Positions 6,101-64,000 of a stretch of 64,000 nucleotides of DNA are shown here, one piece after another (within the stretch, counting starts at the first letter, position 1; each line of letters opens with the position of its first letter). Location of the stretch: positions 22,679,202 through 22,743,201 of the forward strand of contig OX422183.1 in assembly GCA_949130485.1 (NCBI GenBank), written 5' to 3'. A program made the position numbers and the translations under genes. The stretch is from Agelas oroides. Lineage: Eukaryota > Porifera > Demospongiae > Agelasida > Agelasidae. The notes under the pieces are model-generated. The model worked only from the letters and a program-made list of their open reading frames with translations. It searched no databases and was not told the DNA's origin.

Positions 6101-9100
6101 GGACTAGTGGCCTGTTTTTTATGCCCTTTAACAATACCTGTAGAATTGCATCTTGTACTATATAACTAGATGAGTCTGTGCAGCTAGCAATATACTTACA
6201 TAGGCGTAGGAAGCAAATTTGGAGTGTAGAGGCCATGTTGTGCCGCGCGGAGCGCTGCTAAAACAAAATGGAAAGGAATTTTGCCGCGCATAGCGCGGCG
6301 GCGAATTTTTCAAAGTGTGCACCTTTAGACTGCAAAATAAAGCCTTTTTTCAACGGTGTATAATATTCTAGCCTCGTTCTCATGCAGACCTTACCAACCC
6401 TCCAGTACTATATTCAACTTATGTGGAAAACAGATTACACTGACTTCGTCGTCGTTCCCAGGAGACCGCCCGGCTATCTTTCGTCGTCTCTTTGAAAATC
6501 GCATTAGCTTCGTACCGAGCCATCTCACTGCCAAGATTTTAATCGGAAATGTATGCATGTGACTGCATATGAGACTGATGCAACGAAGAGGCTGCTTGAT
6601 CTTACCTCGCTCCCAGAGAACGAGACTAGTTTGAGCTAAATTATAGCATGCAGGTTATGAATATTAATTTACGGCCTAAAAAGTGTAGCGGCCAAAGCCG
6701 CTACGGCCGCTACGGTTCCTACGCCACTGACTTAGGCACCATTTCTGATGTGTCTCAAGCTGGATGCAGTTCAACAGGTAAGAGAATCTTAATAATAGTT
6801 AGACTTAGAGGCCTGTCATGAAATCAATGGGGTTTAGAGATCTAAACTTTGTAGAAGCTATTAAATTTACAACCATATATAGACTCACCTTCTTCCAATC
6901 AAGGTGCCCCAAAATCCAACCTTTGTCATGTCATCTAGTGCCTCTTCTTGGCGATCTTGAGCTTTTGTGTACCTAGTACAGAAAAATTTACATTAGTTTT
7001 ACATTAGACATTAGTTGATTTCATTTTTAGGCCTTACGAGGCTTTAGTTTCATTAAGCTGCCTACATAGGATACAGCATACATTTCCATAGCATCTGTTT
7101 CATCCTTGACGACCGTATTGAGCTTCTTTTCCTGGAGTTGTTGCTCTGTCTCAAACTTGACTCTGTCAGATTTCATTTTTTCAATCTCGTTAGCCTTCGC
7201 ACCTCGCTTTTTGATAGCATCCTGGACTGCATCCTCAACCTATTAAGTGTATGAAAGAGTATCAATGATTCAGCAGATAAAGATAATTACTGTTAAACAC
7301 TCACAACTACAGACAATCACTATCCCTCTCACCCTTTTCTTCACTTTATCAAATTCTTTCTGGAGGTTTGCAGCTGCCTTGTGCATTTCACCTGCCACTT
7401 TTGAGATCCCCTTGTATATCTCCAGTGCCATTTCGGTTTCACCCTCTGTCAGATACTCGTAGGTGGCTTGGAGATCATCCAGAATACTTCCAGAGGCATC
7501 TTGAAATCTTGCCACAGTGATTGCTGATGTGTCGCAGAGATCTGCCACGTCAAATCCTATCTTCTGAATTTCAACTTGGAGGTCAGTGAACTCAGGTCCA
7601 GCAGCAGTAGCACCATTGTAGGCAACCCTAACAAATCCACCAACTCTTCCAAGGTCTTCAATAAAGGTCTAGTGTAAAAATTGAAAAAGGCAAAAAATTG
7701 TTTCAACACCCCCTTCTTTCACCCACTGAAAAAAGCATGGTAAGGCAGGAAGATATGTTGAACACACCCCATCATATGGCTCATAAGATCATACTACTCA
7801 CAGTCTACATTAGATCCTTGCAAGTAATACTTATGGGATACTTGAAAATGTGGAATAATACTAGACTGTGCATGTTCAGAGTATATGTCAACCCCCTTAA
7901 TTCACTGCATGAACTTCAATTTATGGTCGGCACTTTGCATTTATAAACTATCTTTTTGCCTTGGAGGGTTCACAGAGAGAAGCAAATAGCTATACAAGAG
8001 CGCATGATGACGTCATTTTTTATTGCGGAGGGAGGAGGAAGAGCGTGTAACTTCCTATTCCGGCCATGGTGAAAGCAGAATCTTTCGCGTGTACTATAAA
8101 TAGCACATCCGGTCGAGTTGTAGCTAGTGTGCGGGTGAAGCGTGAGTAAAAGTAGCTGGAAAGCAATCGAGTTAGAGGCTTATCGGTTGGATAAGGACTG
8201 CGCGTTAGCCAAGGAGAAGCTCAAGAGTTTGACTGAAAGGTTACGCGGCCCTCTTCGACTGTCAGGCGTGGATAGCAGCGTAACACCAAGTTCCTCTTGT
8301 CAGGAAGGGTCGACAACCGTTCCTGTGTAGCTAGAACTTGCCAGGTAAGCTTGGAGCGTTCACATCTTGTTGACTACGAGGGTAACACTGCGTTGTGAGG
8401 TCGTAGATCGTGGAACTGCGAACTTGTGCGAACGTGTGTTCTCTTTTTAGTACACGCGGGAGATTCTGCCTGTTTCGAATCCTCCAACTCACACCATCTT
8501 AATCTTCACTAGCACTTTCGACAATGTTGCGACTGCATCGAGTCATTCGAGTGCAATGCTACATAACAGCTGCAGAATATTTTTATGTAGGCAGCAGTTG
8601 GCGTTCCAGGTATAATAGGTCGCGAGCAAGTCGCGCTCGTACAGGTAAACGCGCAGCGCCGACATGCGCCCTCCTGCTTAGCGTTGCCAGACACCGCATC
8701 CTCCAGCAGGCTAGACAAGAATCCACAGAAGTACAAACATCCTCGAGTCAGTGTGGTCGCACAACTTAGTATCTTCATTTTCAATAAAGGGTTGTATACA
8801 ACCACATTCGCTTACTACTTACACTTTATAATACATACCTCGTCAAGCTGTGTCTGCAGAATGCGGCGCGGTGCCTGTATCAGTTTGCCAAAAGTATCAC
8901 AAACAGCTAGCCTGAATCATCATCTCAATCTTCCACAGTCGTTAAACTGGCCAATTTTAATTTGTGCACTTTGTTCCTTACTCGGACCGGCAAACTCAAA
9001 CTGTACGCATAGACTATGAATGTACACCTCGCAACTTAGCCATACTATAACTAGATGAATGCAGGGCATTGTGGGGCGAGCCTGAGCAAGCAGTATGCCA

Positions 9101-12000
9101 AGGACTACAATTGCGCATGCGCAGTTCGTACACACGCGCGCGTACCCTTTCGCACTTGTCGAGGTGTCGAAGTTGGCGTGGTGTTTAGTAAGAAGTAAAG
9201 TTGCTGTTTGCTTACTGTGCCTCATCCAAGTGTAGAAATGACAAAGGCAGCGTTGTACATTATTCACACAGGAATGACCTCATAATTGAAAGTCTTCAAT
9301 TCTTGGCCAACCCACATCTAGTTTTCTGCCTAGGGGTGAGAAACAATGAATTGGTTTGGAAGAGGCTAACATGCAATTTTTTGTGTACACAATCACCCTT
9401 ATGGTTTATCAATTTTTGTTGTAAACAACATGACATTACACTAATAATGATATAAAAGTGATGACATAATATTTCCTGTTTGCATGAGAGCTTACATTGG
9501 AGTTTCTATCGACCAAATGAGCTTCAAATGGTAGTTTTTTACACATTGCCAGTGAGTTAGTGGATGTTGGTTGGTTCAGTTTTTCCATTAGGGCTGTGTC
9601 ATTGCTATCTCAACACCATTGTTGGTAGCCACAAAAGTTTTCCATTTTTTCTATGACATTTTCTCTGAGAGTTTCTACTCCAGGTTGCTGAACGTCGTGC
9701 TGGCTAGAAGAGTCTATATTTTGCATCATCATTGTCTCTGGCAGATTGTGTAGTGGAGACAATTGTGGCAAATGCTTCCCATTCTTGCTTACCTGGGTAG
9801 CCTCGTTCCCAGGCTCTCCCCACTAAGAAGGGCCCTCCCCCCTCTTAGTTGGGAGAGCCTGGGAACGAGGCTACACCTGGGTACAGTTCACTGAAATCAC
9901 ACAGCTATTGCTTGAATTCTTTGTTGTTAAAGATCACCTGACGGATGGTGTCCTTTTCCTCCTTGACGTCGGCTTCTTCTCTTGCGGTCACGGAAGCCAT
10001 GTACGCTAATGCGCTATTGGAAGCCCTACATACTTCATGCGACCAAGCGCGGCGCGCGGGTGATTCTCTTGCGGTCACGGAAGCCATGTATGCGAATGCG
10101 AAGCCCTACATACTTCGTGCGACCAAGCGCGGCGCGCGGGTGACGGTCGTACGATAATGATAATAATAATAATAATAATAATGATAATACATATATGAAA
10201 TCTCCCAGCTGTACCGTCTATGTGGGGCTCGCTCAGGCTCGCCCCAATAATAACTAGACGAATGCAGGGCATTGTGGGGCGAGCCTGAGCAAGCAGTATG
10301 CCAAAGACTACAATTGCGCATGCGCAGTTCGTACACACGCGCGCGTACCCCTTCGCACTTGTCGAGGTGTCGAAGTTGGCGTGGCGTTTAGTAAGAAGTA
10401 AAGTTGCTGTTTGCTTACTGTGCCTCATCCAAGTGTAGAAATGACAAAGGCAGCGTTGTACATTATTCACACAGGAATGACCTCGTAATTGAAAGTCTTC
10501 AATTCTTGGCCAACCCACATCTAGTTTTCTGCTTAGGGGTGAGAAACAATGAATTGGTTTGGAAGAGGCTAACATGCAATTTTTTGTGTACACAATCACC
10601 GTTATGGTTTATCAATTTTTGTTGCAAACAACATGACATTACACTAATAACGATATAAAAGTGATGACATAATATTTCCTGTTTGCATGAGAGCTTACAT
10701 TGGAGTTTCTATCGACCAAATGAGCTTCAAATGGTAGTTTTTTACACATTGCCAGTGGGTTAGTGGATGTTGGTTGGTTCAGTTTTTCCATTAGGGCTGT
10801 GTCATTGCTATCTCAACACCATTGTTGGTAGCCACAAAAGTTTTCCATTTTTTCTATGACATTTTCTCTGAGAGTTTCTACTCCAGGTTGCTGAACGTCG
10901 TGCTGGCTAGAAAAGTCTATATTTGCATCATGATTGTCTCTGGCAGATTGTGTAGTGGAGACAATTGTGGCAAATGCTTCCCATTCTTGCTTACCTGGGT
11001 AGCCTCGTTCCCAGGCTCTCCCCGCTAAGAAGGGCCCTCCCCCCTCTTAGTGGGGAGAGCCTGGGAACGAGGCTACACCTGGGTACAGTTCACTGAAATC
11101 ACACAGCTATTGCTTGAATTCTTTGTTGTTAAAGATCACCTGACGGATGGTGTCCTTTTCCTCCTTGACGTCGGCTTCTTCTCTTGCGGTCACGGAAGCC
11201 ATGTACGCTAATGCGCTATTGGAAGCCCTACATACTTCATGCGACCAAGCGCGGCGCGCGGGTGATTCTCTTGCGGTCACGGAAGCCATGTACGCGAATG
11301 CGAAGCCCTACATACTTCGTGCGACCAAGCGCGGCGCGCGGGTGACGGTCGTACGATAATGATAATAATAATACATATATGAAATCTCCCAGCTGTACCG
11401 TCTATGTGGGGCTCGCTCAGGCTCGCCCCAATTATGCTTGACCTTTTTCAGCTAATGTAGCGGCGTAAAAAAAAAAACAAAAAAAAAACGTTTCTTTGAC
11501 AACGACAACTCACAAACTATCAGGGAACTGGTCCGTACATGGGACACTACAATGGTTTTCTGCAAAACGCAATGCGAGCTAGTTAATTAGCGCATGATGA
11601 ATCAATCTGTCGCTTGCTCATACAGAATCACCCTTAGTATACACAATTTTGAAGCTACTATCCATCATCAAAGAACTTTTAAAAAGTTGTATCTGTGCCT
11701 AAACATGCGGTTGGAAAATTGCTCCGCTTTTCGGTGAACAATAGCTCTGCGCTCGTTTCTGCATGCGGTATTTGAAAAGTTAATCTATTTGAAACAGTCT
11801 GAGCGTAACCAACAAAATGCCACAACAGGTAACAATATGAATTTAAATATAATATACACGAAATTTACTTTCAAGTCAACTTGCTGAAGTAAACCTTCCT
11901 TCTGCTTGATTACTATCCCAGAAGTCTGCGGCGGAATCTCCACTATCGAATAGGATTCCTTGTCAATGACAATCGTGACGTTGACAGCAGCTAAAGCCAT
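1093..12000 (-). CDS. Seven-exon helical/coiled-coil protein with possible membrane-active segment
   Basis: Exons: 12000-11869, 7668-7333, 7239-7038, 6961-6889, 4791-4536, 3064-2928, 1324-1093. They total 1368 nt, 455 aa plus TAG. All seven join in frame with GT-AG borders (phases 0,0,1,2,0,2), which strongly supports the model. The weakest border is the exon 4 acceptor: the frame requires an AG ten bases downstream of the first candidate. The start is ATG 12000, about 110 nt below a TATAAAA on the same strand. The product is almost entirely helical, rich in K, E, Q and A, with long heptad-like stretches and a short hydrophobic patch (VGFWGTLIG) near the middle, encoded by exon 4. A related layout is seen in the gene at 20836-24406. 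Helix-hydrophobic hairpin-helix proteins include alpha-type pore formers, but I cannot assign that activity. The function is unknown. Confidence 0.8.
1586..1611 (-). repeat. Stray TIR end of the 1.2-kb element family
   Basis: This stretch reads TGGGGCGAGCCTGATCGAGC and matches, in reverse complement, the right end of the elements at 9048-11434. It lies in the gap downstream of the last intron-exon border of the first gene and has no visible partner nearby. A short (TA)n tract follows at about 1639-1657. Confidence 0.6.
2030..2290. repeat. Dispersed repeat, relative at 38690-38930
   Basis: About 250 bp align in the same orientation with 38690-38930, including the shared string GGGGATAGTTGAACCA and a block around TAGCTTTCTCC. 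Both copies show a broken minus-strand frame, so they may be remnants of the same mobile-element coding region. It lies inside an intron. Confidence 0.55.
2928..3118 (-). promoter_or_regulatory. CA microsatellite forming a 3' splice site, plus exon 6
   Basis: On the minus strand the intron ends in about 50 nt of (AC)n followed directly by AG and then exon 6 (3064-2928) of the first gene. The repeat occupies the place of the polypyrimidine tract. The exon reads in phase from the preceding exon (phase 0) and into the next (phase 2). Confidence 0.7.
3243..3641. mobile_element. G/C-run element with 11-bp TIRs
   Basis: Perfect inverted ends AGGCGGCGGAA and TTCCGCCGCCT bound about 400 bp. The element has a G run then a C run near the left end, and a block (CTCAGAAGCGATCTCAGAGC ... 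CTGGGGGA) that recurs at 16444, 17470, 25936 and 48380. It is non-autonomous with no gene, and sits in an intron. Confidence 0.7.
4182..4266. repeat. Short foldback
   Basis: Arms 4182-4211 and 4237-4266 are inverted copies differing at one base (core GACGTAATCAGTAGAAATGA) with a 25-bp loop. Confidence 0.8.
5259..5951. mobile_element. TIR element, TACCGTATTC ends
   Basis: The left end TACCGTATTCACTCTAATTT is mirrored at the right end (AAATTAGAGCGAATACGGTA). About 690 bp in length, with TA at both ends as expected for a TA-duplicating (Tc1/mariner/pogo-like) insertion. No intact transposase. It lies in an intron of the first gene. Confidence 0.75.
6198..6728. mobile_element. TIR element with relative at 61.1 kb
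   Basis: The ends GGCGTAGGAA and TTCCTACGCC are inverted. The interior (about 6285-6500) is homologous in opposite orientation to 61115-61330; both contain the same string around CGGCGGCGAATTTTTCAAA. GC-rich palindromic blocks lie near the right end. Confidence 0.65.
7996..8330 (+). promoter_or_regulatory. Promoter-like cluster inside intron 1 of the minus-strand gene
   Basis: In order: AAGAGCGCAT (7996), the perfect CRE palindrome TGACGTCA (8008-8015), AAGAGCGTGTAACT (8039) running into an ETS-like ACTTCCT, and TATAAATA (8095-8102). The same three outer motifs recur in order at 42908-42997. Below the TATA, 8142-8330 is open with a helical, Lys/Glu-rich reading but has no ATG (GTG first, TGA just upstream), so I do not call it a gene. 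It may be the 5' end of a transcript or of an element. Confidence 0.5.
9048..10246. mobile_element. TIR element copy A (about 1.2 kb)
   Basis: Inverted ends GGGGCGAGCCTGAGC (from 9075) and GCTCAGGCTCGCCCC (to about 10243) bound the unit. It is followed head to tail by copy B. Inside are a hairpin element (9798-9873), an 87-bp internal tandem repeat (9981-10145) carrying GCGGTCACGGAAGCCATGTA, and a GAT/AAT microsatellite. A minus-strand stretch reads as protein with interruptions and matches the interior of the element at 63180-63896, so both descend from a longer coding element. Non-autonomous now. Confidence 0.8.
9798..9873. mobile_element. Hairpin MITE nested in copy A
   Basis: A near-perfect hairpin with ends TAGCCTCGTTCCCAGGCT and the complement, flanked by TACCTGGG and CACCTGGG. 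The related sequence at 63650-63680 lacks it and shows the empty site. Other family members are at 11000, 40699, 42642 and 62743. Confidence 0.85.
10247..11434. mobile_element. TIR element copy B, tandem to copy A
   Basis: Almost identical to copy A (offset 1203 bp at the left, 1184 bp at the right because its microsatellite is shorter). It contains the same nested hairpin at 11000-11075 and the same internal 87-bp repeat. The shared nested insertion means the unit duplicated after the hairpin entered. Confidence 0.85.
11000..11075. mobile_element. Hairpin MITE nested in copy B
   Basis: Same hairpin and flanks as at 9798-9873. It was carried along by the tandem duplication rather than inserted independently. 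Confidence 0.8.
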
Positions 12001-27071: not shown

Positions 27072-28088
27072 ATGAAGGTCTCAGTGGTCTTTCGTGTTCC
27101 TAGCACCGCGTGGACGGTGCAGATTACTGACGCCTACGAATTTGAGGCGGAGGTCTGGATCGTTGCCCGAGTGAGTGCGTCATCTGAATTCGGTGCTGCT
27201 GTAATATCGACAGTCACGGACTCCATAACCATACCAGACACAGCCAAGGATGTCAAATATTTCATCCTCGGCAAGACATGGAACTGGGAGAATTCACCGG
27301 AGTTGGAGCCGTACGAGTTTGTGAAAGAGAACGACGAGCAACAATTTGAAACGAAACTGAAGAGTGGCAAGCGGATCGATGTTGTTCGAGACGAGCAGCA
27401 GATTCCCATCAAGACTTATACGTCGGTTTCGGTAAGCTTAGAAGTTCCTAGTCCTTTATGGACGGTAAAGATAACCGACATCTACGAGTTCAAGACGGAG
27501 ATCTGGATCGCTGCCCGAGTGAGTGGAACGCTTGAGGGTGGACTTAAGATGTTCACAGCCGTTGACACTGTAACCATACCGAGCACAACCAAAGATATCA
27601 AATACTTTATTCTTGGCAAGACCACAGATATCATCATGCCCTCCGGTAACCCAGAATCGTATGAGTTTGTGAAAGCAAATGATGAGAAACAATTTGACAC
27701 AAAATTAAAGAGAGGTGAGAAGATTGATTTCATTCGAGAGCAGCACCAGGAGGCACCTCACATGACCACTACAACTGTTTCAGTAACCTTACAGGTTCCT
27801 AGTACTGCATGGACAGTGAAGATTACCGACGTCTACGAGTTCGAGACAAAGGTCTGGGTCGCTGCCCGAGTGAGCACAATCTCCGAGGTTGGACTCACTG
27901 TGATATCCACAGTCAGTGACTCTGTAACCATACCAGACACATCCAAGGATGTCAGGTATTTTATCCTTGGCAAGACATGGGGCTGGGAGAGCTCGGAACC
28001 GTATGAGTTTGTGAAAGCGAGTGACGAGAAACAATTCGAGTTGAAATTAAAGAATGGCAAGAAGATCAATTTTGTTCAGGACGAGTGA
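27072..28088 (+). CDS. Protein of three tandem ~110-aa domains, single exon
   Basis: 338 aa with no intron. Units start at about residues 1, 118 and 236. Each begins VSVxLxVPSTAWTVxITDxY, continues with alternating beta-strand-like stretches, and ends in a shared block: KYFILGKTW, PYEFVK, then F(E/D)xKLKxGKKI. No signal peptide, Cys pattern or membrane segment, so it is probably cytosolic, possibly an all-beta domain. I do not recognise a named family; the unit faintly recalls short uncharacterised bacterial proteins, which I cannot verify. The intron-less structure and higher GC contrast with neighbouring genes. Unit 3 is closest to unit 1 of the paralogue at 54369-55013, suggesting unequal exchange. 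The next gene lies tail to tail, 1.5 kb away. Confidence 0.85.
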   Translation: MKVSVVFRVPSTAWTVQITDAYEFEAEVWIVARVSASSEFGAAVISTVTDSITIPDTAKDVKYFILGKTWNWENSPELEPYEFVKENDEQQFETKLKSGKRIDVVRDEQQIPIKTYTSVSVSLEVPSPLWTVKITDIYEFKTEIWIAARVSGTLEGGLKMFTAVDTVTIPSTTKDIKYFILGKTTDIIMPSGNPESYEFVKANDEKQFDTKLKRGEKIDFIREQHQEAPHMTTTTVSVTLQVPSTAWTVKITDVYEFETKVWVAARVSTISEVGLTVISTVSDSVTIPDTSKDVRYFILGKTWGWESSEPYEFVKASDEKQFELKLKNGKKINFVQDE

Positions 28089-29601
28089 CTACCCAACACA
28101 CTATGTTCTTTGCTGTAAATATTATATTTCTGCAGTATTTAATTCTAGTATGTGATGCTGTGTAAAGGTTTTCATGGTTGTTATGCTTAACACCTGATTT
28201 TTGGTAGCACCATGATGAGATGATAGCAGACCAGGAGGTCAAACATCGTGACACTATTTCACTTGTGCTGCATGGTTGACAGATGATGGTGCGGTAGCTC
28301 TATAGCTAGCTCTACTAAAATTCTATAACTATCTTTTATAATACCAATGCTGCAGACTCCTCATTTTGCAGTGTGCCGTGCATGCAGCTAGCTTCTGACA
28401 AGTCTGCACTGTTACACCTAGTGAATGTGTGTGCAATAGAGCCACATGTGGTTCTATTTGTCACATTCACTAGGTACACTCAGCAGAAAGACTGTCCTCA
28501 CCAAGCCTCGCTAAACAATTGCAACTGTAAGGGGATAGCCATTCCATTAGTTGACTGTGATCTATGACATAAAACTGGACATCAATGACATTGTAAATCC
28601 TTCCAGAGATCTTTTCAGAAGGATCCGGTTAAGATTCTGGACACTTGTGGTGCCTGTCCTCTATGCATGTGATTGCTGTTCCCCGCCAGCTTCATGCATT
28701 GAGTGTTGTCTCATAGCCTACCCTAATTATCACCATGCACTTTGGTATATGTACACAATGCTGCCTGGGAAGGATGACTACACATTTGTGACTGCCTACC
28801 TCTGAGTTCCCTATCTTTTTCTCTACTCTCAGTACATAGCCTCTGAGTCCATACACTATCAAGCCATGATCAGGTGAGGAATACCTTCAATTTGCATAGT
28901 GTACACTGTCACTTTTGTTGTCAGTTGGCATGCTCATGACATTGATGCATGTGCATGGATGCACTGGATGGTCATATCAGTGAATAATCCACTACAGTAC
29001 CTGCATAGCTATTGGTCAATACAAAACTCTGGCAGGCTATGTAATTATGTTAGTACACATGGTATATTTTAAAGATGTTTTGAATCAGGGTCCCTACCTA
29101 ACTTTTGTAGGGAAAATCCATGCATATGACTATTCTTGATGTCTGTATCCATGTGATAGAAGTGTAGCTACTGAGAGTATGTTTTTGATGTGCAGTTCAT
29201 AGCTACTTAGTCCAGACTATATAGGTAAAAGAAATGCATGCATTTGGCACACTTGATCAGATTTCATGCTAAGTATGTTAGCTAGCTGTTCCACTCTGTC
29301 TACAAATTTAAGCAATTCTCGTAATCATACACTTCTCCCAGTAAGTTCTGAACATGAAACTGTGGCTAATCAAAGAATAACATCAGATTCTAATGTGGCA
29401 CACAATATAGATTATGATGATTGTTTTTAAGTGGTTTCGAGAGAAACATGTATCTCTGTTCATGTCTGTACACATGTACCTTATCCATGACTCAATTTTA
29501 GCTACTTAGCTACATGCAGGCACACACAAACACAAAATTGAAAAGATGTTAATCAGGCACAAAGTAGCTAAAATGATATCTACTTCTGTAATAAAAAGTA
29601 G
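28089..29601. other. Intergenic region between convergent genes
   Basis: The only structure seen is a 60-bp palindrome at 28416-28475. No coding or RNA gene is supported. Confidence 0.5.
28416..28475. repeat. 60-bp near-perfect palindrome
   Basis: The ends ACCTAGTGAATGTG and CACATTCACTAGGT, with inner arms meeting at the centre CCACATGTGG. There is almost no loop, so it is a cruciform candidate. Confidence 0.85.
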
Positions 29602-32600
29602 TTAATTACATTGCTCAAGAAGAGGCTCTCTCAGTTTGCCATAGTCCTCATATGAGTTCCGTATTGACTGGTAGCCATTACTGCTGTAGATATCTTGGGA
29701 TGTTGATACAACAGACACAGTCACTTTAGCAGAGGTAGTACCAGTTGGTTTTGCTGTATGTTTGATTAGGTTGGGGAATGGTTGCAGCTTTGCCCTCACA
29801 CGCTTCACTAACATTACAATATGGCCGATTACAACTGCTATAGCAGTACAGAGCACTGAAATAAGGTTGGCAAGCAGTAGATAAACAGCATTGTTCCCAC
29901 CTAGTGCATTGTAGAGGTTGATGCAGACCAGAATGATGGTATTGAACATGAGCCAAGTGTCCAGGATTCCAACCAGTTCTTTCTGGAATGGTCTAATGTA
30001 GGCCTGTACTGTGATGAAAGCGACCAGCAGAACCAAAGTCAAGAGAAGCTGCTCTTGTGGGTATCGGCCTCTCAAAATAGCGTAAGTAATGTACACAGTG
30101 ACCAACAGGATTAACCGCATGCCAAACCAATAGCGTCTGTTGTCCTTGTAAGGGCCATGGATGGCATCAATGAAAGGCCTCAGTTTGTTCACCCATCGAT
30201 AGCGAAGACCAAATGAACCCAAAGTACCTAGCAACAGGTAGGGGAAGATCACTAAGGCTGCAACCAGAGTAGCAAAACATAAGAGAACTATATGACCAAT
30301 GGTTTTTCCAAATCGAACAGTGCCATCAGCGAGCCACACCAGATACTCTCCGTCCTCTGTGATAATGGTGGAAGAGGAGAAGACCTCAATGTCTGTTATG
30401 AGCATTCTTGAGAAGGACAGATGGATAAGGGTTATCAGAACCTGCACAGAAGACTGCATGAGGACTCTGGTAGCTCGAAATGAACAGTGGGCAACTAGCA
30501 GTACAACAGCAACTATCAGCCACAGGTAGAAGGCATAAGCATACTGAAGTCCCATCTTGATGGACATGGTCATTCCATTGAAAACGCAGGAGGGAAAAGA
30601 CTGATCAAGATTCAGAAAAAAGACAGGTTCTGTGAAAGGGATTAGAAATGTTTGGTTAGGTACCAGATAAGTTATAGCAAATATGTTTGCGTAAAAGATG
30701 AGTCCTCCAATGGTCCCCAAATGAAGTGTCAGTTTCAGCACATACATCAAAAGCACTCCCAAAAGACCCACTCCAAGGTATAGCACAATGGTGAACAGCC
30801 AGTAATTGGAGCAGACCATGCACATATGGGGCCCTAGAGTGATGCTGTAGCCTGGCTGACACTTACCACAAAGCACACCAGCCCTGTTGTTCAGGCAAAG
30901 AGATGTGTTCACAATAGACACGCTTAGTGAGGAAGTGCTGTCACAGTAGGTTGTAGGACAGAACGGGGCAAAACCAATATGTTCATTTGTTGCACTATCA
31001 TTTCTGATCAATCCAATCCAGTTTGGTGGCCTGGGTGTGAGAATTTTATTATTTCGGTCACAACCAATGTGAATGGTGTTTAAAAAGCTGCGGCACTCAC
31101 ATGAACCCATTGTTTCATTTAACAGGAACCCAGGTGGGCAACTCTTGAGGGATACATTCTGATAAGCCTGTGGAGGCAGACCAGGTACAGCAAAGTTCAG
31201 TCTCCCAGTGCCTTCTTGTTGATTACTGTGGATAGTGTAATTGAGATCTCGGCATCGTCCATTATAAAGTGTACTGATTTCTTGATCTGTGTTGACCCAC
31301 CAGCCTGGTAAAGCCATGATTGTTGAGATCGGGCTACTGAAGCTAGCATTCATTTGTGAAAACACACTACCTCCAATAGAGTCTATAGCTATTAGGCTGA
31401 CTGTTATACTGTCACCTGGATAGATGGAATGTGTTGGAAACTTCTTACTACAGTCGGGGGTGTCATTGACGCAGGCACAAATGCCAATGGATGGGGAGGT
31501 AAGAGCAGGAGTGTTATTGCCCACAAAAGTGAAGATTTGGTCATAGAGGTTTGTCAGTTGGCGAGGGAAGACCCGAACCCTCATCTGGAAGCACTGTTCC
31601 AGAGGAGCAGCATAGGTTGCAGGCCCAGACCGGAAAGCATTGTTGCCATCAAACATCACAGTGATGTTGAGCTCTGAGATATTCCTCTTGTTAGAGTCCA
31701 CTTGTATCACACACGCATAGTTTGCTGTATCCCTTTCATAGGCATATAGCACTCCTCCATCTAAGTAAGCGATATTGTCCTGAAAAAGTATGGTGCTGTT
31801 TTCAGCAAGGATAATATGTGAATTGCTCTCAAGCCGAATAGCAGCTCCATATGTTGCCTTATTATCCTGAAAAGTAATATTCCCAGTGAGGTAAATGTCA
31901 CTTGCAAATGCTTCAATGACAGATCCATAGTTATCAATAAAACTGCTGCCAAGTGAAGAAGTTCCCTCGATTATCACTCTTCCTAATCTTGCAAGAAGAA
32001 ATTGACTGGAGTTGGTCACAGTGTTCACAGTGAAATTACCAAAGTACTGAGAATTGTGTTCAACAATCACATCTGTCATTAGTATGTTCAGTCGTTTCGT
32101 ATTCAATCTTGAAAAACCATAAACTGTTTCCGCATACATACAGATTCCATTGAAAAAGGCTGCATTATAAGTAAAGTTAACGCTTTCCAGTGTAATCATG
32201 ATGTCAAAGAGGGGCTGGTTCACCATTACTATGTATACAGTTGAGCTCCCATTGCTGGTATGGTTTGAGATCAGAGTGTTGCGAATAGTCAATGGTGTCC
32301 ATTCCAGCAGATCACTCAAGTTATCAAACTCAAATGACTTGATGTAGCTCTGAGTGTAGTAGATATAAGATGCAATGCCTGATCCCGGACAGATTGGGAT
32401 TAGCATGGTGTTATTTGATATTATAGTGTAGCCAGTGATAGCTAAAGAGGAAGTGTGAGGGGAGTTGATGAACGCAGCAAATAGTCCCCCAACTATACTT
32501 CCATTGTTCTCAGTGATGATAGTATGATTGATAACAGTTGTGTACACAAACTTACTCTGTGTAAAGAACAGGGTAATTCCTCCGGCTCCACTGAGAGGGA

Positions 32601-33409
32601 TGCGTTCTGGATAGAATTGGAACACATTGTGCATGCATACATAGTTAGTGGTGAAGTACGAATTCCGCTGAAATAGGGAGTCACTGATGATAAGACTGCT
32701 CCTGCTATTGTTGGAATATTTTGGGAAGGGTGTGACATCACTGTTGTGGGTATAGACCAGTACTCCTGACCCATAGCAGGTGTAGTTCCCACGAGGGTGG
32801 TTGACAATCAATGTAGAGCAGAGAGGTCCTCCAAACGAATCAAATATGTGTAAACTGTGGAATAAGGGAGATCCATACGCGTTGGCTGCAATAATCGCAA
32901 AGCCATAATACTGGGTGACAGCTATGTTGGTAAGACGGAGATTTAGCGTTTCGCTGAAGAACATCACGGCGGACTGGTTCGTTCCGAAGAACGCAGGCAC
33001 ATCGGTGCTGTTCTCATACAAGAACGCGTCTGGAGATACGACACCGCCGCACTGCGTAAAGCTGAGGTCTTTCAGAGTCAAGTTGCTGCAGTTCAAAAAA
33101 CCAAATCCTCGTGTTGTGAAGAAGGAGAACTCTGCGGTATGGTTACACACGATCTCCGCCTGCCTTCCTGGTATGTCACTTGAAATCGTTACGTTCACTA
33201 TTAAAGTTCTGAACGACACAAAAAGAGCCGGGATCAATGTAGTGTGTCACATTAGTGGCGAGCTTCAATTCGGTTCCTTCGCGTTGAGGTCCATCTCCAC
33301 AGAGATAATTCTCCAGGAAATCTGTTGCTGAAGGAATTACACCATCGCAAATCTTTGTAAGAGGGCTACACAACACTACTAGTGAGACCAGCAGCGAACA
33401 AACATCCAT
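29602..33409 (-). CDS. Large beta-helix/multi-TM receptor-like protein, frameshifted near N-terminus
   Basis: By comparison with the intact copy at 50060-53875 this gene begins at ATG 33409 with a signal peptide (MDVCSLLVSLVVLC). After about 68 codons a 4-bp insertion (TTAA at about 33201-33204) shifts the frame. The remaining frame is open for over 1200 codons to the stop at 29602. The ectodomain is Asn-glycosylation-rich with repeating short beta-strand units (parallel beta-helix type). It ends in Cys-rich modules (CPPGFLL, then CGKCQPGYS). About nine hydrophobic membrane segments follow, then a short cytosolic tail ending LREPLLEQCN. Through the membrane part it differs from its paralogue at roughly one residue in ten. 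No intron is visible. It is either a recent pseudogene, an allele, or a sequence error. The ligand is unknown. Confidence 0.8.
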
Positions 33410-33454
33410 CTTTATGATTATAATGATAATCATGATCCGCGGCGCGTGATTAGA

Positions 33455-33905
33455 GTAAGCCACCGGTGTTCGGACACCATCAATAATCGGACGCTCACCA
33501 CAGGAAACAGGAGGTAGCAGTCCATCCCATTTAGGCACCGGAGGATAGCACCACTCCACTGTAGTTTAGAACTGGAGTAGCAAGCAGAGCTGTACTTTAG
33601 TCTTGCAGCTACGTACCTGCAAAGTTCGTCGGCCGAATACAGCAAAATTCGGCCCAACTCCATCAATGCGCGGACATACTACTGTAACTTTCCAACCGTA
33701 CATGCTACGACCACGAAACAAAAAGCTGCGGATACCCCAGACCCTCCTTAGTGTGCTCAGTGAATGTGAAGTTTATTGCTTTTAAAACTTGTGCAATCGA
33801 CATCAAAATGTTAAGTACTTTTGGCCCATCAATGATCGGACTATAAGAGGGAGGGGCTTCTGAGCTTCCCTGCCCATTGAGGTCACCGCACGGGCTCACG
33901 GTAGG
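33455..33905 (-). repeat. 5' flank of receptor-like gene, duplicated inverted at 44.3 kb
   Basis: This block starts about 45 bp above the ATG of the receptor-like gene and matches 44325-44768 in inverted orientation with high similarity. Both contain the strings CCGATCATTGATGGGCC and GGTGTCCGAACACCGGTGGC. A stretch of about 45 codons is conserved as an open frame in both copies. It is the likely promoter region of the gene. Confidence 0.75.
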
Positions 33906-34046: not shown

Positions 34047-35066
34047 TCAGCTACAACTTGTGCAGTTCCAGTCTATCTTCTTGAGTTCAGATGCAGATTT
34101 GTCCCTAACTTCAGTACAGCTCTTATGAAACCATTTATGGCACTTGGTGCACATAACCATGAGGTTCCCATTGTCAGGTAACCGGCATACACAATAAATC
34201 CTTAAAGTCTGTGTATCCAAGATTTTCGTCGACCGTGCTTGCCTCTTTGACAGATCTAGTGGGAAAGGCCTGGGGTCCTTTTGCTCTAAGCAAGTGACAA
34301 GATGAGTTCGCATGAGCTTCTGAATGAAGTGAAGTGAAGAAGGATCCACACCATCAAGGGCAGCTGTTATGTTGGCCAATGCAAACAATCCACAGTCACT
34401 ACCACCTGACTGTAATTGCACGTTGAGCATTTTTATCGGGATACGGTCCTTTGGGCATTGCAGCAGATCTGATACAATCACCTTAAGCTGAGATGATGGT
34501 CCACAGTGCATGCTGTCCAGCCAGTGCACAACACCAACAGAACACCCAAGTGTTGATATTGCAACCCAATGGTTGTTTCCACTGTTGAGAACTTGCACAA
34601 CTTCATGCTTCCTCGAATCTCTCTTGAATTTTCGTTTAGACACAAGTACTGTTGAATGTAGACCCCCAACACCAGGATATTTTTGTTGGAGTAGAAACTG
34701 CCAGGCACATATTGTTCGAGCATTTATCCACTTCCCACTTTCAATTAGCCACTTGTCCTCCATCAACAAATCATTTCCACCAAGGCTGATCCATGTGCGT
34801 GCCTTTGGTGATTTTGGTGACTTGATCCTTGTGGAGTCGGCACTGATTGTGGTCGATAGCTTTGATGACATAGGGGATTGAAGTGAACATTGAAGTGAAC
34901 AAGTGCGTGACGGATGGCATTCAGAAGTACACTGCCTATGTCGGCATTTACACAGACAACTTTTTGCCGCAGTACATCCAGATGTGCAACTGCATGGGGT
35001 CATCTTCAAACCTGTCACAAGAGATAATCCTTTAATTAACCAGTATTGCATTCCAGCTTCTTTCAC
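34047..35066 (-). CDS. Ulp1-like cysteine protease with CXC and PHD zinc modules
   Basis: About 339 codons; the first ATG-like start is uncertain because the frame is open from a TGA at about 35098 and an upstream exon may exist. Residues about 23-55 hold a Cys cluster of CXC type (CSCTSGC ... CLCKC ... CTSEC). Residues about 160-250 match the C48 (Ulp1/SENP) fold: His in NNHWVAIS (about 164), Asp in WLDSMH (about 183), Gln in NVQLQSGG and Cys in SDCGLFALA (about 224). All catalytic residues are present. Residues about 292-338 form a PHD finger (CVC, CTKCHKWFH, WNCTSC). This combination is common in transposon-derived genes of marine invertebrates. Substrate not known. A decayed relative is at 46821-47508. 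Confidence 0.8.
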   Translation of the reverse strand: MKEAGMQYWLIKGLSLVTGLKMTPCSCTSGCTAAKSCLCKCRHRQCTSECHPSRTCSLQCSLQSPMSSKLSTTISADSTRIKSPKSPKARTWISLGGNDLLMEDKWLIESGKWINARTICAWQFLLQQKYPGVGGLHSTVLVSKRKFKRDSRKHEVVQVLNSGNNHWVAISTLGCSVGVVHWLDSMHCGPSSQLKVIVSDLLQCPKDRIPIKMLNVQLQSGGSDCGLFALANITAALDGVDPSSLHFIQKLMRTHLVTCLEQKDPRPFPLDLSKRQARSTKILDTQTLRIYCVCRLPDNGNLMVMCTKCHKWFHKSCTEVRDKSASELKKIDWNCTSCS

Positions 35067-35340
35067 TTGTATTCTAGAATTACTACCTCTGTTTCAATGT
35101 AGAGCAGGTACTGCATGCTTTTGCTATGTAAGGCTGTTCCTTGATTCCAATTAGCCTAATTTGTCACATCACTTCACATAAGGAATTTGTCACTTAATGA
35201 GATACTCTTTTCATCTGCCAAGACAGATGTAAGGTCAGTATTCTTTGGAGCTACATAGAAAAAAATCAGGGTGGAGTGTCCATAATAGTGGGTGTTCAAT
35301 ATAATTAGTGGTCCACTAGCTCTTGTTATGTACTTTTAAC

Positions 35341-44324: not shown

Positions 44325-44768
44325 CGTGTGAGCCCCGATGGACCTCACATGGTCTTCGTAGCCCCTCCCCCTTTCAGTCCGATCATTGATGGGCCAAAAG
44401 TACTTAACATTTTGATGTCGATTGCAAACGTTTTAAAAGCAATAAACGTCAAATTTACTGAGCACACTAAGGAGGGTCTGGGCTATCCGCAGCTTTTTGT
44501 TCCATGGTCGTAGCATGTACGGTTGGAAAGTTACAGTAGCATGTCCGCGCATTGATGGAGTTGGGCCGAATTTTGCTGTATTCGGCCGACGAACTTTGCA
44601 GGTGCGTAGCTCCAAGACTAAAGTACAGCTCTGCTTGCTACTCCAGTTCTAAACTACAGTGGAGTGGTGCTATCCTCCGGTGCCTAAATGGGATGGACTG
44701 CTACCTCCTGTTTCCTGTGGCGAGCGTCCGATTATTGATGGTGTCCGAACACCGGTGGCTTACTCTAG
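44325..44768 (+). repeat. Orphan copy of the receptor-like gene's 5' flank
   Basis: Inverted copy of 33455-33905. The similarity stops at CTTACTCTA, just where the receptor-like gene's leader would start. No gene follows; the intact receptor-like gene on this side starts 5.3 kb further on. Confidence 0.75.
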
Positions 44769-44942
44769 TCTCGTGCCCTGTCTGGCAACAAGACTATTGA
44801 AGCAGTGAGACTGAATGTTTTGTCTGGTTGATGAGTGTAGGGAACCACTGTTATATTGGAAGTTGGAAAGTGAAAACAATGATTTAGAGACAAGTTTTGA
44901 GCTAGCTGCTGTCCATGTCCGCGCGCCTCCCCCCCCCACCCC

Positions 44943-46820: not shown

Positions 46821-47508
46821 TTAGCTATAGTAAACAACTTTCACAAAACCACTTGGTGCTGGCATCAGAAAGACTAGAGAGGAAATGTTTGCACATTGCT
46901 GATGGTACCATTGCTTGTACTGTTTACATTGCGCAATGTTGCCAAGTTTGGAGTCCTTGGGCACTTGCAGATACTGTGTATTTGGACTTGAATGAACTGG
47001 TTTCATGGTGGAGTCAGGAAATACAACAATTTCACGATTCTCCAAGTAGCTAACAAGGTGCTTTCTCATCAATGACTGGTTCTTGAGGTGAGCAGCGGGA
47101 TCTTTGCCATGACACAAGCTCACTGCAACTAAAATAGCAAACAGGCCAGAGTTGGCGTCTCCATTTTGATGCTGCATGTTTACCATTCGTAAAGTGATCT
47201 TCTTTTTGGGTGACCAAAGAATGGCAGATAATATACTGCTCCTTCAAAATGCAAGGTGGCGATGGGTACACACTATCATACATATCTACCACAGTGGGTG
47301 CACTGTTGATGTTGCTGACACACACCCACTGAGAATTGCTGATGTTGATTTTGTGGATAAAGTTATTAGGATGTGAGTTCCAGCGCATGTTAGCCAAATC
47401 CAATGTGTCCTGCAGCCCAGTCTGGTTTCGAAGCAGAAGAACTTGCACTGCACAGATATGCTGCTGCATAACAGTACCTAAAATATGGGGGTAGCTATCA
47501 CTGCCCAA
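46821..47508 (-). pseudogene. Degenerate Ulp1-like protease
   Basis: Two overlapping frames together resemble the protease at 34047-35066; the frame changes near 47176. The catalytic His position reads SQWVCVS (Gln), the Asp is kept (VDMYDS), and the Cys position reads NSGLFAI (Ser). A remnant of the PHD finger (YKQWYHQQC) follows. Frame break plus loss of two catalytic residues argue strongly against activity. The N-terminal CXC module is not seen. Confidence 0.75.
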
Positions 47509-48359
47509 ATGGGCAGTGATAAATTGTGATTGGGCACTCAGTGAGTGATAAACACAGGTTTGACATTTGACTCAGTGCATTGCTGCAATGCAGCACTACA
47601 AATTGCAACAATAGCTAATTATTATGACTGCGTGATGTCATTTCCTGCATTGCACATGTCTGTGGCACGTGGCATGACTTTGTTCCCACTTGAATGAAAT
47701 GGGCAGTGATAAATTTTAGGCACTGCTGCATAAGCCATTTATCCGACAAGATAATTTGCTTGTCCTCTTGGAGGAGTTCACGTTCGGACCATGGAGATCA
47801 GGAAGGTGGAGTTGGCACCAAATCCAAGTCAATAATGTCCAGTTGTTGCAGGTAGATGGGGTGCTGGGATCAGGTAGATTTGAACATGCTTCTTATAGAA
47901 ATGAAGTGAAAGTAGTTGTATTGTGAGTGGGAGTATATGTAGTTCTTATTCCAGATAGTGCACACCCACATTTACTGCCGGCATGTTATTGTAATCATAT
48001 ACACACCCCATAATTATGGGGTTAGAAGTTGAAGTCTTCACTCATTCACTACGTGAGCCTGTCTGTCACGTACATAATAGACAGATCATGTGATCAAAGC
48101 CTCCCCTCCCATTGGTAGGGGAGTGCAGTGGGGGGCCATTGTTTCCTTCTAGTACTAGGGGACATGGAGTGCCCCCCCCCCAACTCTATGTTCGCTACTA
48201 GCTATACATGAAGTTAGCATGGAGTGTTGGAGGCCACTCCACATCAAGCAGGAGTATAGGTTCAAATACTCTAAATTTATCATAACCCGCTTCTTACGCC
48301 TATGGAAATTCTACATGATACAGTTTTTTAGTTTCACGCTGCTTTAAGTTTTCTCACTC
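47509..48359. other. Non-coding region with short repeats
   Basis: Contains ATCACTGCCCAAATGGGCAGTGAT (palindrome, about 47497-47520), another GGGCAGTGATAAATT at 47702, and GGGGACATGGAGTG repeats at 48110-48245. No gene. Confidence 0.5.
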
Positions 48360-49800: not shown

Positions 49801-50059
49801 TGGGTAGCTATGGGTAGCTAAGTGTACTTGCATGCATGCATGTGTGCATTCTACATGCTATGTGCATGTACATGTGAATGTGTGGAGTTGTCTGTGTGTA
49901 TCCAGTTATTTGTGTGAGTCACGCCAATATACGCAGTCACTCCCGCTGGTGTAGACAGTAACAACCAACCCGATCCGCTGGAGTATACACTACTGGAGTG
50001 TACTTTGTACTCTGACCTTTGTCCTTTCTATCACGTGCTGCATGCGGCTGCAATAAGTC

Positions 50060-53000
50060 ATGACGAATACTGCTTGTTCAATGCTGGTCTCCCTGCTAGC
50101 GTTATGTGGGGCTCTTCCAATGAATTGCGAATGTGTACTTCTGTCAGCGACAGACTCGCATTCACTGGAGAAATATTTCTGTGGAGATGAAGGACATGAT
50201 TCGGAGATTATTCAAGGGTCTGAAATGCAGCTTGCCACTAATGTGACACACTACATTGATCCAGGCTCTTTCTGCGTCGTTCAGAACTTAGTGAACGTAA
50301 CAATTTCAAGTGACATACCAGGAAAGCAGGCGGAGATCGTGTGTAACCATACCACCGAGTTCTCCTTCTTTACTACACGAGGATTTGCCTTTCTGAACTG
50401 CAGCAATTTGACTCTGAAAGATATCAGTTTCTCCCAGTGTGGCGGAGTAATGTCTCTTGAGGCGTTTCTCTACGAGAACAGCACCGATGTACCTGCGTTC
50501 TTTGGAACGAACCAGTCCGCCGTGATGTTCTTCAGCGAAACGCTAAATCTCCGTCTCACCAACATAGCTGTCACCCAGTATTATGGCTTTGCGATTATTG
50601 CAGCTAACCCTTATGGATCTCCTTCATTCCACGACTTACACATATTCGATTCGTTTGGAGGACCTCTCTGCGCTAAACTGATTGTCAACCACACTCATGG
50701 GAACTACACCTGCTATGGGTCAGGAGTGCTTGTATATACTCACGACAGTAATGTCACAGCCCTCCACAGCTCTCCCAACAACAGTCTTCTCATCAGTGAC
50801 TCCTTATTTCAGCGAAATTCCTACTTCACCAATGACTATATATGCATGCAAAATGTGTTTCAATTCTATCCAGAACATGTCCCTCTCAGTGGAGCCGGAG
50901 GAATTACTTTGTTCTTTACACAGAGTAAGTTTGCATATGCAGCTGTTATCAACCATTCTGTCATCACTGAGAACAATGGAACTATAGTTGGGGGATTATT
51001 TGCTGCATTCATCAACTCACCTTACACTTCCTCTTTGGCTATCACTGGCCACACTATAGTATCAAAGAACACCATGCTAATCCCAGGCTGTCCTGGATCA
51101 GGCATTGCATCTTACATCTATTTTACTCAGAGCTACATCAAGTCTTTTGAGTTTGATCACTCAAGTGAGTTACTGGATTGGACGCCTTTGACCTTACATA
51201 ACACGCTGATTACAAACCACATCAGCAAAGGGAGCTCAACTGTATACATAATCTTGGTGAACCAGCCCCTCTTTGACATCATGGTTTCACTAGAAAGTGT
51301 TAACTTTACTTACAACGGAGCCTTCGACAATGGAATTTGTATGTATGCCGAAACAGTTTATGGGTTGATGAGAAATGTGAAACCACTTAGTTTACTAATG
51401 ACAGATGTGATCGTTGAACACAATTTTCAGTATTTTGGTGATTTTACTGTGGACTCCTTAACCTACTCTAGCCAATTTCTTTTTACAAGATTAGGCAGGG
51501 TAACAATTGAAGGAACGTCTTCACTTGGTAGCAGTTTTATCGGCAACTATGGATCTGTCATTGATGGATTTGCGACTGACTTTTATCTCATTGGGAACAT
51601 TACTTTCAAGAACAATAAAGCAACATATGGAGCTGCCATTCTGCTTGAGAGTAACTCACACATCATTCTTGCTGAAAACAGCACCATACTCTTTCAGAAC
51701 AATAGTGCTTTCTTAGATGGAGGAGCCATATATGCCTATGAAAGGGGTACAGAGAATTATGTGTGTGTGATACAAGTGGACTCTAACAAGACAAATATCT
51801 CACAGCTCAACATCAATGTGACATTTGATGGCAACAATGCTTTCCGGTCTGGGCCTGCAACCTATGTTACTCCTCTGCAAGATTGCTTCCAGGTGAGTGT
51901 ACATGTCTTCCCTAGCCAATTAACAAACCTCTATGACCACATCTTCACCTTCGAAGCCAATGATACTCGCGCTCTTACTTCACCGTCCATTGGCATTTGT
52001 GCTTGTGTCAATGACACCCCTGACTGTAGTAAGAAGTTTCCAACACGTTACATCTATCCAGGTGACAGTATAACAGTCAGCCTAATAGCTATAGATTCTA
52101 TTGGAGGTAGTGTGTTTTCACAAATGAATGCCAGCTTCAGTAGCCCCAACTCAACAATCGTGGCTTTACCAGGCTGGTGGGTCAACACAGATCAAGAAAT
52201 CAGTACCCTTTATAATGGACGGTGCCGCAATCTTACCTACAACATCCATATTAATGAACAAGAAGGCATTGGGAGAATGAATTTCGCTGTACCTGGTCTA
52301 CCTCCACAGGCCTATCAGAATATCTCCCTCAAGCCTTGCCCACCTGGGTTTCTGTTGAATGGAACAATAGGCTCATGTGAGTGTCGCCGCTTTCTAGACA
52401 CCATAGACATAAGTTGTGATCGCAAGTATAAAATCCTTAAACCTAAGCAATTGAACTGGATTGGATTGATCAGAAATGACGGTGTAACAAATGAACATAT
52501 TGGTTTTGCCCCATTCTGCCCTACAACCTACTGTAATGGTTCTTCTTCACTAAATGTGACCATCACAAATGCATCTCTTTGCCTAAACGACAGGGCTGGT
52601 GTGCTTTGTGGTAAGTGTCAGCCAGGCTACAGCATCACTCTAGGGCCCCATATGTGCATGATCTGCTCAAATTACTGGCTGTTCACCATTGTGCTATACC
52701 TTGGAGTGGGTCTTTTGGCAGTGCTTTTGATGTTTGTGCTCAAACTGACACTTCATTTGGGGACCATTGGAGGACTGATCTTTTATGCAAACGTTTTTGC
52801 TGTAACTCACCTGGTACCAAGCCGAACATTTCTAATCCCTTTCACAGAACCTATCTTCCTTCTGAACCTTGATCAATCTTTTCCCTCCTGCTTTTTCAAT
52901 GGAATGACCATGTCCTTCAAGATGGGACTTCAGTATGCTTATGCCTTCTACCTGTGGCTGATAGTCGCTGTTGTACTGCTAGTGGCCCACTGTTCATTTC

Positions 53001-54368: not shown

Positions 54369-55013
54369 ATGAAAGTTTCAGTGGTCTTTCAAGTTCCTAG
54401 TACCGCGTGGACGGTGCAGATTACCGACGTCTACGAGTTTGAGACAGAGGTCTGGGTCGCTGCCCGAGTGAGCACGATCTCCGAGGTTGGACTTACGGTG
54501 ATATCCACAGTCAGTGACTCTGTAACCATACCAGACACATCCAAAGATATCAAATATTTTATCCTTGGCAAGACATGGGGCTGGGAGAACTCGGAACCGT
54601 ACGAATTCGTGAAAACGAGTGACGAGAAACAATTCGAAGCGAAATTGAAGAGCGGCAAGAAGATTGATTTTGTTCGCGACGTGCAGCAGGTTACTACCAC
54701 GAAGGTTTCAGTAACCTTACAAGTTCCTAGTACTGCATGGAGTCTACAGATTACCGACGTTTACGAGTTCGAGACGGAAGTCTGGGTTGCTGCTCGACTG
54801 AGCGCGACCTCCGAGGTTGGACTTACGATGATATCGACAGTCAGTGACTCTGTCACTATACCAGAGACATCTAAAGATATCAAGTATTTCATCCTTGGCA
54901 GGACTTGGAACTGGGATAATTCGGAGCCATATGAGTTTGTGAAAGCAAGCGATGAGCCGAAGTTTGAGGCAAAATTGAAGAGTGGCAAGAAGATTAATTT
55001 TGTTCGGAATTAG
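54369..55013 (+). CDS. Protein of two tandem ~105-aa domains, single exon
   Basis: 214 aa. I choose ATG 54369 over an upstream in-frame TTG because the paralogue at 27072 starts at the same point (MKVSVVF). Unit 1 spans about residues 1-109 and unit 2 about 112-214, both with KYFILG(K/R)TW and PYEFVK. Unit 1 is closest to unit 3 of the paralogue (shared RVSTISEVGLTVISTVSDSV), while its first few codons match the paralogue's unit 1, as expected after recombination within the repeat. No signal peptide or intron. Same strand as the receptor-like gene, 0.5 kb upstream. Function unknown. Confidence 0.85.
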   Translation: MKVSVVFQVPSTAWTVQITDVYEFETEVWVAARVSTISEVGLTVISTVSDSVTIPDTSKDIKYFILGKTWGWENSEPYEFVKTSDEKQFEAKLKSGKKIDFVRDVQQVTTTKVSVTLQVPSTAWSLQITDVYEFETEVWVAARLSATSEVGLTMISTVSDSVTIPETSKDIKYFILGRTWNWDNSEPYEFVKASDEPKFEAKLKSGKKINFVRN

Positions 55014-63179: not shown

Positions 63180-63896
63180 GGGTCGCGTAAGGTGCCGGGT
63201 GAAAGCCACATATGTCATCATTACATCATCATTAATTTTGTGCTAAATAGGATGGAAAATCCTCTGTCAACGTTGCATGTGCCCTGCCACGCCCTCTGTA
63301 TACTTAGATCAGTTTTGAAAGCTTGATCAACATCAAGGAGGGAAAACTTTGTGACCTACACATACGACTTAATGTCTTGCCTCAACCCCCCCCCCCCCCC
63401 CCCCACCAATTATAAAAAGACATTTCATTAAGAAATCTGGATCTTTTCTGCTACCAAAAACAGCTCTCAGGTCTCAAATGTGCTGCATTTGGTAGTATGT
63501 TGTGTAGGTTGAGTTCACTCCCTCTGGGTCCATTTTCTCTGAGAGTTTCTAGGTTGCTGAAACGTCGTGCTGGCTAGAAAAGTCTATATTTGCATCATCA
63601 TTGTCCGTGGCAGATCGTGGAGTGGAGACCACAGAACTGTGGCAAATGCTTCCCATTCTTGCTCAACGGGGTACAATTCACTGAAATCACACAGCCATTG
63701 GTTGAGTTCTTTGTTGTTAAAGATCAATTGAGGGATGTCGTCCTTTTCCTCCTTGACATTGATCAAGCTCTAAGTATGCAGAGGGTGTGGCACGGCGCAT
63801 GCACATTCACAGAGGATGTTCCATTCTATTTAGTACAAAATTAATGATGATGTAATGATGACACATGTGGCTTTCACCCGGAACCTAACGCAACTC
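63180..63896. mobile_element. Foldback element carrying an older coding segment
   Basis: Arms of about 140-165 bp (63180-63343 and 63752-63896) are inverted copies, the outer part sharing GGGTGAAAGCCACAT and TCATCATTACATCATCATTA. The loop holds a C run (63387-63406) and a 200-bp block (63540-63760) homologous to 9665-9965 and 10865-11165 but without the nested hairpin. Minus-strand reading there is open for about 60 codons (SELYPVEQEWEAF). Confidence 0.8.
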
Positions 63897-63974
63897 TTTG
63901 TGAAAGCAAACAATGAGCCGAAGTTCAAGGCGAAATTGAAGAGTGGCAAGAAGATCAATTTTGCTCGGAGTTAG
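63897..63974 (+). pseudogene. Tail of a third tandem-domain gene
   Basis: 25 codons ending in TAG match the last part of unit 2 of the gene at 54369-55013 (EPKFKAKLKSGKKI), and the matching continues into the 3' flank (TTAGCTAGTC ... TTGTGTGAC). It begins exactly where the foldback element ends. No other part of the gene is visible on the left of the element. Confidence 0.8.
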
Positions 63975-64000
63975 CTAGTCTAAAAATTGTGTGACGCTGA

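Follow-up and report, generated by a model that had tools for sequence, protein, structure and literature searches.

Two genes of the sponge Agelas oroides encode tandem copies of a domain that recurs in bacteria labelled with five phyla; we read them, with moderate confidence in the reading as a whole, as the product of a bacterial envelope domain that was acquired by the animal, multiplied in tandem and became signal-less, and for which we infer a role as protease adaptor. The window, i.e., the whole stretch of 64,000 nucleotides that was analysed (C1:22,679,202-22,743,201), belongs to a genome of 259 Mb in 141 contigs; its units and genes are listed in Table 1.

Table 1. Genes and domain units in the window (positions counted from its first nucleotide).
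Feature	Position	Strand	Remarks
Gene 1	27072..28088	+	338 aa in one uninterrupted frame; three units
Gene 1 unit 1	27072..27395	+	GKTWNWEN motif intact
Gene 1 unit 2	27396..27749	+	most diverged unit; GKTTDI in place of the GKTW-W motif
Gene 1 unit 3	27750..28085	+	mosaic: first ~60 aligned bases resemble gene 2 unit 2; after these, mostly gene 2 unit 1
Gene 2	54369..55013	+	214 aa in one uninterrupted frame; two units
Gene 2 unit 1	54369..54692	+	208 bits with the five-unit HMM
Gene 2 unit 2	54693..55010	+	206 bits with the five-unit HMM
Fragment from the 3' end of another copy	63897..63995	+	last ~25 codons, stop, start of 3' flank

The three units of about 110 aa and the two units of the paralogue, as noticed in a preliminary description of this DNA, were recovered by a hidden Markov model built from the same five units that it then scores (195, 180, and 203 bits for units 1–3 of gene 1; 208 and 206 bits for the units of gene 2). 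The tail fragment was found as well (25 residues; 28.7 bits, E 1.8e-7); its 99 bases share 88.9% DNA identity with gene 2, reach 21 bases beyond the stop codon, and abut a repeat at 63769-63894, and in the rest of the window the next match had an E-value of only 3.8. Elsewhere in the window, a tandem pair of ~1.2 kb (9047-11432, 97% identity) has smaller stretches recurring at 63.5-63.8 kb. That unit number varies between paralogues holds as three versus two, but genome searches gave these two genes only, besides the window fragment. The sequence blocks KYFILGKTW and PYEFVK, described as common to the units, are real but variable: gene 1 unit 2 has KYFILGKTT and SYEFVK and is devoid of the Trp-x-Trp motif, gene 1 unit 3 has RYFILGKTW, and gene 2 unit 2 has KYFILGRTW. 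Gene 1 had been called intron-less, a term that applies here to a frame that stays open from the ATG as read in genomic DNA. No in-frame ATG lies upstream of either gene; since no signal peptide is recognizable by eye in either, their product would be cytosolic. That a signal peptide is encoded by a further exon upstream was considered and is unlikely, because the sequence ACACAG that both genes share (by eye) 22 and 24 bases 5' of their ATGs stands in different phases; there may be an intron within the 5' UTR.

No strong match to a well-described family emerged: the units had no match at or above the curated cut-offs of Pfam and NCBIfam, and none at the cut-off among PDB sequences (best E 0.41). 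Because no relative came out of an automatic search seeded with the five units, DNA encoding GKTWxW[ED][ND] was sought across 84,980 species genomes; of the 97 stretches returned by this pattern scan, nine contain the coding sequence of the domain, with E-values from 5.9e-24 to 1.3e-16, and the next best has an E-value of 0.86. The unit thus has homologues outside this animal; the preliminary proposal of an undescribed family stands insofar as no curated Pfam or NCBIfam model matches, and has to be qualified by the bacterial relatives at these E-values and by a probable distant kin, PrcB_C. In a BLAST search of the A. oroides genome, a verrucomicrobial member retrieved the same five units (best E 2.4e-19), with 40-47% identity to the four best and 34% to the fifth. 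In surveys queried with a joint animal-bacterial alignment, each count including the centre genome, the domain occurred in 3/297 genomes of the phylum of G003, 1/274 of the class of G001, 1/247 of the phylum of G007, and 17/240 of the phylum of G004. In the order of one verrucomicrobial genome, 36/177 genomes match, several of them being counted in the G004-phylum survey as well. Most members occur in Verrucomicrobiota; outside this group the domain looks rare and patchy in the sampled genomes. The 51-row set used below leaves out 10 order-survey loci that repeat earlier genes as well as seven matches without a locus, and L146, a 42-aa piece, was excluded from the alignments.

Judging from their sequences, the bacterial forms look exported to the envelope, either alone (often as a lipoprotein), beside a META domain, or at the C-terminus of an M16 peptidase. 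The META domain lies downstream of the unit in two of the first nine bacterial proteins (L056 and L115); M16 peptidase domains (PF00675/PF05193) precede the unit in five of the eight verrucomicrobial proteins scanned against Pfam, and in the five M16 proteins of the first survey the domain was matched at E 1.2e-25 to 2.5e-30. The 30 loci of the order survey comprise 11 M16 fusions, 15 lipobox proteins, and four with neither feature, where the lipobox was called by a simple pattern and the fusion by alignment to the M16 part of a complete protein. This complete fusion of 1037 aa has an HILEH motif at residue 86 and a signal-like N-terminus; signal peptides were judged by eye, and for L056 and the majority of M16 proteins the N-terminus lies outside the sequence seen. 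The verrucomicrobial M16 peptidases with the domain at the C-terminus include L148:1704-4814 and 10 more order-survey loci, and the domain part of the complete protein has PrcB_C, below threshold, as its only Pfam match. The M16 peptidases are the only recurrent enzyme fusion seen (11/30 loci). No recurrent neighbour was seen in 16 bacterial stretches, two of which represent the same place and in which ORF starts were read by eye; in the stretches L151 and L152 the domain itself was not among the ORFs picked. Among the literature matches listed for the M16 fusion, none was on the subject by title.

The unit is predicted to be a mostly-beta domain of ~105 residues, with five strands, a conserved G-K-T-W-x-W-E-N loop, and a strand-helix-strand tail; the AlphaFold2 model from 14 rows (mean pLDDT 82.8) places strands at 7-16, 21-30, 34-43, 53-62, 67-74, 85-88, and 104-106 and a helix at 90-101. 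By strand order, the conserved PSxAW loop, the strand 3-4 loop, and the GKTWxWEN loop would lie at the same end of the sandwich. Foldseek and a second structure comparison yielded no convincing solved structure. Membership in the META family (PF03724) was considered and rejected, because the profile match covers only 18 columns around the TW-W motif (score 31.2 at columns 76-93; 10.7 once the first 24 columns are removed); in L056 and L115 the META matches fell downstream of the unit and not in the unit itself, and META is absent among the 20 families listed for 31 domain members. Chagasin-type inhibitors (I42) are absent from the same 20 families as well, in a listing that extends to E-values of 10 and from which most weak matches were filtered.

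The Pfam family matched by most members (4/31, best E 1.3e-4) is PrcB_C (PF14343), named after PrcB of the dentilisin protease complex of Treponema denticola. Where bits were shown, no match exceeded the gathering score (17.4 bits for L148 vs. the curated cut-off of 24); PrcB_C was not found in the Pfam listings of the window proteins, gene 2 unit 1, and the first nine bacterial proteins, and PF14343 had no match in the domain-holding genomes G003, G084, and G004. Profile comparisons, made with Pfam PrcB_C proteins, T. denticola PrcB itself being outside the set, gave stronger signals: P 8.8e-4 with four proteins (score 26.0 vs. at most 21.1 in 200 shuffles), P 1.4e-3 when repeated with these four in another program run, and P 8.7e-5 after addition of a fifth protein, with 31 family rows (31.6 vs. 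at most 25.5 in 400 shuffles). With 51 rows, 50 of which it took in, hhalign aligned 58 columns at P 4.1e-5 and Prob 70 (33.4 vs. at most 18.8 in 400 shuffles), and with bacterial members only it gave P 1.9e-5. The five animal units alone produced no match to PrcB_C (score 7.7, P 0.9); the link therefore runs via the bacterial members. Taken singly, three of the five PrcB_C proteins beat the best of 297 decoy ORFs (22.8, 24.7, and 22.7 vs. 19.8), and two fall within the decoy range (13.9 and 10.7). Among the best 15 of 100 decoy clusters, the top three contain the family itself, and four further decoy families score 27.2-37.2, two of them above the 33.4 of PrcB_C; these four align solely at family columns 71-92, i.e., at the GKTW-W motif, and are held to be biased, as is META, because their loci were fetched by the GKTW-W pattern. 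The highest remaining decoy reached 22.5, partly over this motif. We regard the domain core as a probable distant relative of PrcB_C, outside that family. According to the available text of PMC8167434, PrcB of T. denticola interacts with the subtilisin-family protease PrtP, PrtP was undetected in a non-polar prcB deletion, and PrcB is without homologues outside oral Treponema. Among the papers listed for PrcB and sponges, or for the Pfam names involved, none was relevant by title.

In the mechanism that we propose, one bacterial envelope-type domain would have entered the animal lineage and multiplied in tandem, its units exchanging by recombination and the gene duplicating within one locus; the animal copies, encoded without a recognizable signal peptide, would act inside the cell. 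Each unit may represent a binding module that grips a peptidase or an unfolded segment with the PSxAW, strand 3-4, and GKTWxWEN loops, so that proteins with two or three units would work as multivalent protease adaptors or regulators. Both the protease-partner role and the multivalence are putative; the M16 fusion of bacterial members lends indirect support to the protease partnership. As an alternative with the same bacterial origin, the domain could be a general envelope-stress or chaperone-like beta module that binds unfolded or oxidised proteins in the animal. The recurrent enzyme fusion seen only to M16 peptidases (11/30 loci), and a single known remote relative whose name derives from a protease partner, argue against such a general module, which appears rather unlikely. 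It would accommodate the many single-domain bacterial members and the META/HslJ-type fusion in two of nine proteins, HslJ being named as an oxidative-stress defence of Acinetobacter baumannii in the available text of PMC11724541. The preferred reading of a domesticated envelope domain has a more specific version that appears doubtful: an undescribed family of PrcB cousins, serving bacteria as partner domain of envelope peptidases, would have entered an early-branching animal and become a cytosolic multivalent adaptor or inhibitor of proteases there, its export signal stripped and its units changing in number and identity by recombination.

Recombination within the array had been proposed because gene 1 unit 3 is nearer to gene 2 unit 1 than to its siblings, and this relation was confirmed (86% amino acid and 88% nucleotide identity to gene 2 unit 1, vs. 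70% and 59% amino acid identity to the siblings), within an overall range of 58% to 86% amino acid identity between units. Among 55 informative sites in gene 1 unit 3, 38 agree with gene 2 unit 1 and 17 with gene 2 unit 2, the first seven all with the latter; this mosaic (max-chi2 17.9, permutation p 0.001 with 2000 shuffles, best break after alignment column 62) therefore supports recombination between units, with the refinement that the start of unit 3 follows gene 2 unit 2. Across the ten unit pairs dN/dS ranges from 0.10 to 0.35, far below 1, which indicates purifying selection on the protein sequence of the units. Divergence is under way in gene 1 unit 2: the W-x-W of GKTWxW is gone, and the four pairs that include this unit have dN/dS values of 0.21-0.35 vs. 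0.10-0.22 in the other six.

Genes 1 and 2 lie within a rearranged duplication, the two copies of which differ in order and orientation: the stretch at 25.9-26.7 kb corresponds to parts of 48.3-49.8 kb, the receptor-like ORF at 50057-53875 (+) matches 29597-33404 (-) with 86% identity over 3.8 kb, and gene 1 matches gene 2. The upstream flanks of the two genes share matching stretches of at most 22 bases, and their downstream flanks do not match. The receptor-like pair (29602-33246, -, 1214 aa; 50057-53875, +, 1272 aa) consists of large single-frame genes with 86% DNA identity in opposite orientation and with hydrophobic, multi-pass-looking C-termini; in the 29.6-kb copy, the N-terminal ~75 residues are encoded in another frame, a weak Chlam_PMP repeat is the sole Pfam match of the 50-kb copy, and a third, broken relative at 57702-58737 (-) shares 29-44% identity in pieces. 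A possibly transposon-derived ORF at 34047-35093 (-) combines a PHD finger with a weakly matched protease- or acetyltransferase-like region and has an apparent partial copy (by eye) at 46821-47571 (-); an inverted pair of 418 bases (33441-33858 and 44360-44777, 95.7% identity) perhaps reflects a recent mobile insertion. In principle, the turnover of units and their duplication beside receptor-like genes could be explained by a defence protein in which the domain serves as decoy or inhibitor against secreted bacterial peptidases; unit mosaicism and duplication, the large receptor-like ORFs duplicated along with the block, and the bacterial domain on M16 peptidases (with a signal-like N-terminus in the complete protein) fit this explanation. 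It is nevertheless improbable, since the animal product, having no visible signal peptide, is unlikely to be secreted, dN/dS lies far below 1 for each of the ten unit pairs, and we know of no immune role of the neighbouring receptor-like genes.

The host genome is that of an animal, because matches to the Wnt family (eight in total, at separate places on three of the contigs concerned) occur on four contigs; none was found in 14 control genomes. A search of the whole genome with one unit returned the five units and no others among the matches listed; such counts are lower bounds, the fragment at 63897 being absent from the matches returned. The animal units group as a single clade among bacterial rows in both trees calculated (98/95 and 100/100), and in the larger tree two gammaproteobacterial rows share a fork with this clade at modest support (94/73); both roots are arbitrary, the bootstrap of the larger tree is unsettled, branches are long, and deep nodes are weak. 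Based on this sequence evidence, the domain was probably acquired from a bacterium by the animal lineage and then grew in tandem, one transfer being the simplest reading; the export signal was probably lost in the animal copies. The long branches and weak deep nodes could also accommodate a vertically inherited eukaryotic family that has bacterial cousins and was lost in most animals, without any transfer; bacteria labelled with five phyla and carrying several architectures, set against a single animal clade, and genome searches that gave no copy beyond the locus among the matches listed, make such a history hardly probable. An assembly contamination or a non-functional relic is very improbable: frames without introns, a GC3 of 0.54-0.56 vs. 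0.46-0.47 in the two receptor-like genes, and a codon usage that correlates weakly with theirs (r 0.12) could be taken in this sense, but the genes sit on a 32.7-Mb contig, are duplicated with neighbouring sequence, and stay open over 338 and 214 codons, at dN/dS values between 0.10 and 0.35.

These results define a protein family, shared by bacteria of five labelled phyla and one animal, that the searched libraries leave unnamed, and its ties to M16 peptidases and, remotely, to PrcB_C suggest a first testable function. The A. oroides genes would represent a probable domestication of a bacterial envelope domain by an animal, yielding a tandem protein devoid of a signal, and the exchange of units can be traced across related species.

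Compared to known systems, the likeness to PrcB_C consists in a colinear core of 55-58 columns – a turn with P and G/W, a V-x-I strand, two further strands, and an A-Q-V-I/L-T/S strand – and in the apparent export of the proteins, PrcB being described as a lipoprotein that interacts with a protease in the available text of PMC8167434. In contrast to PrcB_C, the domain described here extends further at its C-terminus, by a GKTWxWEN-PY-helix part, and is devoid of the N-terminal part seen in the five PrcB_C proteins; the animal copies further differ by their tandem arrangement and apparently cytosolic location. META/HslJ (PF03724) adjoins the domain in two bacterial proteins and is, on present evidence, not homologous to it; a lateral transfer of META1 has been claimed for Leishmania (PMC3270026, as far as available). 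The M16 zinc peptidases of Verrucomicrobiota carry at their C-terminus the same domain as the animal units, from which the animal genes differ by being without a peptidase part. Prokaryotic-type genes have been reported from the sponge Amphimedon queenslandica (PMC4784904), and bacterial-type genes in sponges likewise in PMC13342648, as far as the available parts of both sources go; PrcB has no occurrence in the main text of the Amphimedon study. In the available text of PMC4784904, the Amphimedon set resembles the present case in its bacterial-type genes and in clusters that suggest tandem duplication, and 29% of its 227 candidates are of unknown function; it differs in that most of the M35 peptidase genes described there have introns.
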